From: an uncultured Flavobacteriales bacterium
GTDB taxonomy: Bacteria > Bacteroidota > Bacteroidia > Flavobacteriales_G > Salibacteraceae
Assembly (NCBI GenBank): GCA_913020435.1
Contig: CAJVZZ010000011.1
Span: 1-64,000, forward strand
Length of the DNA: 64,000 bases
Reading direction: 5' to 3'
In this document: positions 45,600 to 48,106 of the stretch, one piece after another
Position numbering within the stretch: the stretch's first letter is position 1
Layout of the letters: every line of letters starts with the position of its first letter
The notes under the pieces: model-generated
Databases searched by the model: none
Seen by the model: the letters and a program-made list of their open reading frames with translations, nothing else
What the model was told of the DNA's origin: nothing
Made by a program: the position numbers and the translations under genes

Positions 45600-45607
45600 T
45601 ACATTTG
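45600..45607 (+). promoter_or_regulatory. -7 box TACATTTG upstream of the lipoprotein gene
   Basis: Exact TAnnTTTG match 29 bases before the ATG at 45637. A similar string, TTACAAATGCTAAAAT (45565-45580), lies 34 bases upstream of TTACATTTGCTAAGAT (45599-45614) as an imperfect direct repeat. Confidence 0.5.
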
Positions 45608-45636: not shown

Positions 45637-46548
45637 ATGATTTTAAAGTCAATTAAATACTTCGCATTTACCATTTCTCTGTTGATATTTGCAATGGGTT
45701 GTGGGGATAATACACCCACACAAAACCCCCCAACAGACAAATTGGTTGATCCCAACCTAGACGTTAATTCGAAAGATAAAGCTCGATTCCAACGTGCTAA
45801 AATTGTCTTTTTCGCTCTTCCATCTCCAATTGAGACGGCTAGGATTCTTAAAAAATCAGGAGCGATATATAACAAGGCCTTTTTAAATCCTAGTTCAAAT
45901 GCGACTGGTTACAGCACTTCCGTTCAAAAGGCCGTTGCACTAGGGATTTTTATTGCAGATTTAAGTTATGCTAATTCGTTTGTTCAACAACAAGATTGTT
46001 TAGAATACTTTGCTACGATTCAAAAGCTCTCTGAAGAGTTAAGTTTAAGCAATATTTTTACTACTGAATTCATTGAGACAATTGAAAAGAATATCAACAG
46101 TGAAGATTCTGTTTTAAAGTACCTGTCTGAATCCTATTGGCGTGCAAATGCTCAATTAAAAGAAAACGACAGAGAAAGTGTTGCTACTTTAGTTGCCGCT
46201 GGAGGGTGGATTGAAGGGCTTCATATTGCCTCTTCACTAGTAGACCCTAATAACCCATTAGATCCTCTTGCAGTGCGCATTGCAGAGCAAAGAGTTTCAT
46301 TAAAACAGTTGATAAAATATTTACTTTCATTCAAGGATCCAAAGGTTCTTAAGGAAATGACTGACGACCTGAAACTTTTAAAAACTTCATTTGATAAAAT
46401 TGAAATGAAGATAGTAAGAGAAACTAAAGAGGTTGATGAAAATGGTATTGAAACAGTAGGAAACACAAGAACATATACCTATCCCGAAGGTACGTTAAAA
46501 GAAATTCTTGAAAAAGTAAGTATCATCAGAACTAAGTACATTAAATAG
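45637..46548 (+). CDS. Lipoprotein of unknown function
   Basis: 303 residues with a lipoprotein signal (LLIFAMGC, Cys22). The mature part is almost wholly helical and charged, with LPSPIETARILKKSGAIYNKAFLNPSS near the start, a YFATIQKLSEELSLSNIF block and a C-terminal ETKEVDENGIETVGNTRTYTYPEGTLKEILEKVS. I have seen this type of protein as a conserved hypothetical in Bacteroidota but know no function. The next gene starts eight bases after its stop, so they form an operon that leads into dprA. Confidence 0.65.
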   Translation: MILKSIKYFAFTISLLIFAMGCGDNTPTQNPPTDKLVDPNLDVNSKDKARFQRAKIVFFALPSPIETARILKKSGAIYNKAFLNPSSNATGYSTSVQKAVALGIFIADLSYANSFVQQQDCLEYFATIQKLSEELSLSNIFTTEFIETIEKNINSEDSVLKYLSESYWRANAQLKENDRESVATLVAAGGWIEGLHIASSLVDPNNPLDPLAVRIAEQRVSLKQLIKYLLSFKDPKVLKEMTDDLKLLKTSFDKIEMKIVRETKEVDENGIETVGNTRTYTYPEGTLKEILEKVSIIRTKYIK

Positions 46549-46555
46549 ACAAGAC

Positions 46556-46996
46556 ATGAAGCACCTTCAATATTTTCTAGCAATTTCAATTGGGGTTTTC
46601 TTATTTTCAAATACTATTAATGCTCAATGTAAGCGTTTTACAGAAAAGCAATGCTTACCTAAGTTAGCTCCTTTTACTAACAACGGTCAAATCAATAATG
46701 CCACTCTTTTTGAAGGTGATTCCGCGAGTTTAATAATGACCTTCTATTCATTATTAGATTATAGGCTTATGGTTTGTTCGCATGACGTTCTTGGTGCTGG
46801 AGTTCATTTCAAAGTCCGAGACAACGATGGAAATATCCTTTTTAACTCTCAAGAAGCACAAAAAAGCGCTTGGGACTTTAGGGTTAATTCAACCCAGGAT
46901 TTAATGGTTAGTGTAATTGCCCCTCAAAACCCCGAAAACTTAACAGATATTCCTGCAAGTGGTTGTGTTTCAATCATTCTTGGTTTTAGGGAATAA
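46556..46996 (+). CDS. Small secreted protein of unknown function
   Basis: 146 residues with a signal peptide (FSNTINAQC). The mature part has Cys residues at CKRFTEKQC, MVCSHDVLG and ASGCVSI and an FKVRDNDGNILFNSQEAQK strand; a beta-sandwich with disulfides is plausible. It pairs with the lipoprotein upstream (7-base gap). The stop is a double TAATAA that leads straight into the dprA region. No family recognised. Confidence 0.65.
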   Translation: MKHLQYFLAISIGVFLFSNTINAQCKRFTEKQCLPKLAPFTNNGQINNATLFEGDSASLIMTFYSLLDYRLMVCSHDVLGAGVHFKVRDNDGNILFNSQEAQKSAWDFRVNSTQDLMVSVIAPQNPENLTDIPASGCVSIILGFRE

Positions 46997-47011
46997 TAAA
47001 AACTAACCACC

Positions 47012-48106
47012 ATTCAACCTTCTTTTTTATTCGAAATTGCACTATCATTAATTGATGGGATCGGTCCTGTAAAAGCTAAAGCTTTAATCAATCACTGTGG
47101 TTCAGCTAAAGCTGTCTTTTCTGAACGCAAATCAATACTTACAAAAATCCCTGATATTGGACTTCATGCTGCAAGGGCATTAAACAATTCCTCTGTTTTT
47201 GATCGTGCCGAAAAGGAATTAAAGTTTATTGAAGAAAATAAAATTCAGATTCATTATTACGAGGATAAGAATTTTCCTAGACGTTTATTGCATTGTCATG
47301 ATCACCCTATAATTCTATATTCTAAAGGAAAAATAAATGCAAACCCTTCTCGAGTGTTAAGTATTGTAGGCACAAGAAGAGCAACACCTTATGGAAAAGA
47401 GGTAACACAGCAAATTATTGCTGGTCTAAAAGACTTAAATGTTCTTGTTTGTAGTGGTTTGGCGTTTGGTATTGACGCAGAGGCACATCAAGCATCTATT
47501 AAAAACAACCTTCAAACCATTGGAACTGTTGCTCACGGACTGAATATGATTTATCCCAGAGAACACGTTGGTCTAGCAAAACAAATGGAAGAGAACGGTG
47601 GCGTTATTTCTGAATTTATTAGCGGAACCATCGCAAACAAAGAAAACTTTCCTAGAAGAAATAGAATTGTTGCAGGAATGTCTGATGCGACACTAGTTAT
47701 TGAGTCGAAAAGACGCGGAGGAGCTCTTATAACCGCCTATCAAGCCTCGGGATATAACCGTGATGTATTCGCTATACCTGGAAAAGTAACCGACGTATGC
47801 TCTGAAGGTTGCAATTTGATAATTCAAAGAAACATCGCTACAATGATTCAGTCCTCGGTTGATATTATTAAGGCAATGGGCTGGGAGTCTACCTCAAAAG
47901 GTTTGGCACCTCAAATGGAAATGTTTATTGACTTATCAGAAAATGAAAGTCAAATTCGCAATATAGTAACTGAACACCAGAGCATTAGACGAGATGAATT
48001 ATCTGCACTAATTAAACTAAGTTCAGGTGAAGTGGCCAGTACTTTGCTTTCTTTAGAACTAAAAGGGGCTATAAAATCACTTCCCGGTGGAGTCTATACG
48101 GTATAA
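47012..48106 (+). CDS. dprA: DNA-processing protein DprA with no ATG/GTG/TTG start
   Basis: Binds incoming single-stranded DNA in natural transformation and loads RecA. The N-terminal HhH/SAM-like part (FLFEIALSLIDGIGPVKAKALINH) is followed by the Rossmann-like core with VLSIVGTRRATPYGKEV, VCSGLAFGIDAEAHQASI, FPRRNRIVAGMSDATLVIESKRRGGALITA and CSEGCNLIIQ, and a C-terminal winged helix (RRDELSALIKLSSGEV). The conserved N-terminus is encoded from about 47012, yet in this frame there is no ATG, GTG or TTG between the upstream double stop (46994-46999) and TTG at 47288. The best start by alignment is ATT at 47012, giving 364 residues, a normal DprA length. Confidence 0.85.
   Translation: MQPSFLFEIALSLIDGIGPVKAKALINHCGSAKAVFSERKSILTKIPDIGLHAARALNNSSVFDRAEKELKFIEENKIQIHYYEDKNFPRRLLHCHDHPIILYSKGKINANPSRVLSIVGTRRATPYGKEVTQQIIAGLKDLNVLVCSGLAFGIDAEAHQASIKNNLQTIGTVAHGLNMIYPREHVGLAKQMEENGGVISEFISGTIANKENFPRRNRIVAGMSDATLVIESKRRGGALITAYQASGYNRDVFAIPGKVTDVCSEGCNLIIQRNIATMIQSSVDIIKAMGWESTSKGLAPQMEMFIDLSENESQIRNIVTEHQSIRRDELSALIKLSSGEVASTLLSLELKGAIKSLPGGVYTV

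Follow-up and report, generated by a model that had tools for sequence, protein, structure and literature searches.

An ATT codon conserved as ATT or ATC across a genus of uncultured Flavobacteriales is the probable translation start of dprA

The dprA gene encoded on the 64,000-nucleotide stretch of contig CAJVZZ010000011.1 analysed here (the window), from an uncultured Flavobacteriales bacterium, very likely initiates translation at the ATT codon at 47012, because the homologous codon is ATT or ATC throughout the genus, at the register where other relatives place ATG, TTG or GTG, and because its upstream context is that of a start. The initial annotation had named this ATT as the likely initiation codon, a proposal that is now well supported, and had stated that no ATG, GTG or TTG precedes TTG 47288 in the dprA frame, which direct reading and the list of open reading frames bear out. 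It had also pointed to close relatives as a comparison: these carry ATC, ATT and ATC at the homologous codon (G001, G002 and G003, respectively), and none (0/3) has an ATG or any other canonical start at this place. The features are listed in Table 1.

The dprA frame is open from stop to stop over 47000-48106 on the forward strand (368 codons by direct reading). Behind the tandem TAA TAA at 46994-46999, its codons run AAA CTA ACC ACC ATT (47012-47014) CAA CCT TCT TTT TTA TTC GAA ATT GCA. The frame matches the Pfam families DNA_processg_A (PF02481, 2.6e-70) and DprA_WH (PF17782, 8e-9) and exceeds the curated cut-off of NCBIfam TIGR00732. Both the Rossmann-type DNA_processg_A domain and the DprA-type winged helix are therefore present, and the reading frame is intact and selected, with all 368 codons open and dN/dS low in each of the gene's two parts. 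Judged by its sequence, it is an intact and complete DprA. The genome carries a single dprA, and comEC and comM are present in the genus; loading of RecA on single-stranded DNA during uptake, the role of the DprA family, is its putative function here. In a start-codon survey covering about 500 kb of the genome, taken as stretches, none of the 380 ORFs of 120 aa or more runs further than dprA before reaching a canonical start codon, and in dprA the sequence passed over is conserved and coding.

Table 1. Features of the dprA locus, in coordinates of the window
Feature	Position	Strand	Remark
TACATTTG, match to the Bacteroidetes -7 box	45600..45607	+	no other TAnnTTTG on the + strand in 45401-47100
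Gene 1, 303-aa putative lipoprotein	45637..46548	+	homologues in G001-G003
Gene 2, 146-aa secreted-type protein, ...SGCVSIILGFRE	46556..46996	+	adjoins dprA upstream
dprA translation initiation region AATAATAAAAACTAACCACC	46992..47011	+	no Shine-Dalgarno; A at -3, -6, -12, -13
Tandem stop TAA TAA ending gene 2	46994..46999	+	first stop ends 15 nt before ATT
Proposed dprA initiation codon, ATT	47012..47014	+	ATC/ATT/ATC in G001/G002/G003, TTG in outgroup G008
dprA CDS (from the proposed ATT)	47012..48106	+	364 aa
Second in-frame ATT (Ile of FEI), disfavoured rival start	47036..47038	+	poor context
dprA helix-hairpin-helix (HHH)	about 47042-47173	+	
dprA Rossmann DNA_processg_A	about 47228-47848	+	
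First canonical in-frame start codon of dprA, TTG, codon 93 from ATT	47288..47290	+	not main start
dprA winged helix	about 47936-48091	+	

The genus comparison covers this genome (G000) and three others (G001, G002 and G003), which are separate metagenome assemblies recorded as Flavobacteriales or Crocinitomicaceae. DprA identity to G000 is 96%, 85% and 65%, respectively, and a canonical dprA start is missing from all three (3/3), with ATT in G002 and ATC in G001 and G003 at the codon homologous to ATT 47012. With the helix-hairpin-helix GxG as the alignment anchor, this codon falls at -15 codons in 4/4 genus members, and 85/90 dprA genes of the class Bacteroidia have a canonical start at -12 to -22 (ATG 55, TTG 20, GTG 10). 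The only genes with no canonical codon at all before GxG (4/90) are those of the four genus members; the one remaining gene (1/90), from another genome, has ATG at -34 and TTG at -11. The nearest outgroup, G008 (DprA 52% identity), has TTG at -15, preceded by an ACC codon and with the same 15-nt gap. In G003 the residues right after the start diverge (ISSDY vs IQPSF), yet the ATY codon is retained. As in the class of near-cognate starts, no ATG, GTG or TTG is found where the coding sequence must begin, and a near-cognate codon is kept there in relatives. Elsewhere, dprA carries an in-frame TAG or is split into pieces in G032:C30, G028:C107 and G096:C1, possibly through decay or assembly errors.

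Most simply, the canonical dprA start would have been lost once, in or before the genus ancestor, the site having been ATT or ATC ever since. The four species share one ancestral loss, so that the conservation does not amount to four independent events. Because of this shared event, and because only one third position is at stake, the persistence of ATT/ATC is weak evidence of selection.

The sequence upstream of ATT 47012 was scored with a weight matrix trained on 150 of the genome's unambiguous ATG starts and covering the 20 nt before the codon. The site scores above 89% of the unambiguous ATG starts and ranks among the best 0.8% of ATT/ATC sites. The homologous site of G001 is likewise in the top 0.8% and that of G003 in the top 8%; G002 is only average, 30% of ATT/ATC sites scoring as high. 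No Shine-Dalgarno sequence is found in the upstream region AATAATAAAAACTAACCACC, whose adenines at -3, -6, -12 and -13 are Kozak-like determinants of the kind discussed for Flavobacterium johnsoniae; the Shine-Dalgarno sequence is rarely used in Bacteroidia (PMC6847099). The dprA start shows no conserved RNA structure (z-score -0.27, with folds that differ between species) and no match to an Rfam element.

The initiator tRNA is ordinary (anticodon CAU, C1-A72, three G-C pairs in the anticodon stem), so the dprA start is to be classed as near-cognate. A variant initiator tRNA with a GAU anticodon was considered and rejected, none occurring among the 30 of 31 tRNA matches read by ARAGORN, which include no initiator-like tRNA with any anticodon but CAU; tRNA-Ile-GAU itself was not seen among these 30 tRNAs and perhaps lies in unassembled rRNA operons. 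Near-cognate ATN initiation is native to these cells, since infC starts with ATA in all four genus species (L060, L058, L064, L082), behind the strong Shine-Dalgarno sequence AAGGAGGAATAAGCC; in most relatives infC also lacks a canonical start and apparently uses ATA or ATT. This strong Shine-Dalgarno stands out in a phylum that rarely uses one. The infC of G001 (G001:C4:48592-49083, L082) contains three in-frame stops (2 TGA and 1 TAA), possibly from a frame error in the metagenome assembly. Unusual starts across the competence genes are ruled out, as comEC and comM of the genus start with ATG, which also indicates that the dprA start is not a reading problem. A genus-wide habit of non-canonical starts is rejected as well, a canonical start being missing in only 2/64 genes compared on this contig. 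The other such gene is an 839-aa ORF (C11:76793-79309) located 12.8 kb past the end of the window, in which the first canonical codon is at 78 and both the homology and the signal peptide begin at CTG 76892. This CTG, which stands where G001 has TTG and G002 has GTG, is the probable start of that ORF.

Upstream, dprA is probably the third gene of a three-gene operon. The Bacteroidetes -7 box has the consensus TAnnTTTG, and TACATTTG is the probable promoter of the run. Gene 1 has no match in Pfam or NCBIfam. Gene 2, which belongs to no known family, is highly conserved and lies directly 5' of dprA in 6/6 genomes checked (three genera). The distance from its stop to the dprA start is 14-27 nt in the genus (14, 15 and 27 nt) and 14-32 nt over the six genomes. 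Given this short distance in each of the four species, dprA initiation is likely coupled to gene 2 termination. Gaps of 14-27 nt suit termination-coupled initiation, which drops with distance and in an E. coli reporter was down to background once the gap was 40 nt (PMC2268962).

In the proposed mechanism, ribosomes would probably arrive from gene 2, having terminated 15 nt upstream, with the Kozak-like adenines assisting, and AUU 47012 (AUC or AUU in the sister species) would be read by the CAU initiator tRNA with a third-position mismatch. DprA would most likely begin fMet-QPSFLFEIALSL, and the N-terminal peptide expected from the AUU start is (f)MQPSFLFEIALSL. Such a weak codon should yield less DprA than AUG would and should confer IF3 sensitivity. 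In S. aureus reporters, cvfC1 with its AUU start and ccpN with its AUA start reach about 10% of AUG (PMC13009471), and raised IF3 inhibits both non-canonical starts and re-initiation without a Shine-Dalgarno sequence (PMC2268962). Because of these results on comparable starts, DprA is expected to be low and possibly IF3-responsive, and it is plausible that the weak start keeps it so. The further step, in which IF3 sets DprA output in the genus through an AUU/AUC start that follows a termination site and has no Shine-Dalgarno, strikes us as rather doubtful. If true, dprA and infC (ATA) would respond jointly to IF3 level or ribosome state, and recombination of incoming DNA would be tied to translational status.

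The strongest rival concerns regulation and not the choice of codon. ATT/ATC may be a start without regulatory meaning, the canonical one having drifted off in the genus ancestor, where coupled initiation and low demand for DprA made its loss nearly neutral; we give this reading about an even chance. Starts do drift here, as illustrated by the CTG of C11:76793-79309 where sister species have TTG or GTG, and in dprA itself ATT and ATC swap, the retention of T or C at one third position fitting drift. However, ATG is one substitution away, and yet 0/4 species have it across saturated synonymous divergence, although given the shared ancestry the missing reversion is a weak argument. Drift with low demand would explain the persistence of the weak start as well as regulation does.

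Initiation at ATT 47012 itself competes with readings that place the start elsewhere. Translation from another non-canonical codon, either ATT 47036 or the CTA or ACC codons before ATT 47012, is unlikely. Between the stop and the conserved IALSL, the only in-frame codons of this genome one step from ATG are ATT 47012 and ATT 47036, and the latter is found in all four genus species. However, ATT 47036 encodes the conserved Ile of FEI, so that coding explains its conservation; its context is poor, 61% of ATT/ATC sites scoring equal or higher, and its position is 8 codons too far into the gene for the normal start register. Among the codons before ATT 47012, no near-cognate one is common to the species. 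Clearly less probable still is a DprA fused to the gene 2 product by readthrough or frameshifting, for which a start codon would be unnecessary. Gene 2 and dprA do share a frame in G000, G001, G003 and G008, but two stops separate them in G000, G001 and G003, the frames differ in G002 and G005, and the spacer is conserved neither in sequence nor in length; gene 2 also looks secreted, a poor fit to a DNA-binding fusion.

A truncated DprA starting at TTG 47288, the earliest canonical codon in frame, is highly improbable. Over codons 2-92, dN/dS is 0.16 vs G001 and 0.08 vs G002 (vs G003, dN is 0.32 and dS is saturated), values by which the 91 codons between ATT 47012 and TTG 47288 are under purifying selection. 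A start at TTG 47288 would cost the protein its HHH region. Across the four species the first canonical codon in frame shifts (93, 93, 43 and 57), with no internal canonical start kept. An assembly error or pseudogene can be practically dismissed, as three other genomes from separate assemblies share the same state, with intact ORFs and low dN/dS. Damage to the gene, which the initial annotation had offered as an alternative, is thus refuted by the three relatives and by the selection on codons 2-92. The same applies to its suspicion of a sequence error at the T-run: the run (TTTTTT at 47023-47028, after TTC) is identical in the 96% (G001) and 85% (G002) relatives and absent from the 65% relative (G003) with the reading frame unchanged, and therefore represents no frame error.

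The ATT/ATC start of dprA can be set beside the few near-cognate starts described in bacteria. The infC gene, encoding IF3, starts with AUU, AUA or AUC in E. coli and many other bacteria, and its autoregulation is known in E. coli. To our knowledge, naturally conserved AUU/AUC starts are known in few bacterial genes, the best-studied of which have strong Shine-Dalgarno sequences. Like infC, which has ATA in this same genome, dprA keeps a near-cognate ATN start across species. The two differ in that infC of the genus carries the strong Shine-Dalgarno AAGGAGG and its product is IF3, whereas dprA lacks a Shine-Dalgarno and is not known to be connected with IF3. An AUU start is also found in E. 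coli pcnB, the product of which is kept low, a limitation that is experimental according to the account of Binns and Masters 2002 given in PMC13009471; pcnB is a different gene in a different phylum, and for dprA a low product is only inferred. The S. aureus genes ccpN (AUA) and cvfC1 (AUU) share with dprA a conserved non-canonical ATN start but have extended Shine-Dalgarno sequences (PMC13009471), whereas dprA has none and sits 15 nt behind another gene. The strong Shine-Dalgarno that offsets the weak codon in ccpN, cvfC1 and infC, usual although not strictly required, is thus absent at dprA. In this respect dprA resembles the termination-reinitiation pairs that lack a Shine-Dalgarno sequence, which combine a short intercistronic gap, a usable non-canonical start and sensitivity to IF3; in the pair studied the gap ranged from 1 to 40 nt and activity was at background level at 40 nt (PMC2268962), whereas coupling between gene 2 and dprA is only inferred.

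No report of a non-canonical or AUU start in dprA was found in the open-licence literature. Automatic annotation would be prone to trim this DprA by 92 residues or to label the gene broken. The genus-wide case would demonstrate that Kozak-like adenines and termination coupling alone can support weak ATN starts, in a host phylum that hardly uses the Shine-Dalgarno sequence. By its sequence features, dprA belongs to the class of conserved AUU/AUC/AUA starts represented by infC, pcnB, ccpN and cvfC1. Three things set it apart from them: the missing Shine-Dalgarno, the alternation of ATT with ATC, and the gene itself.
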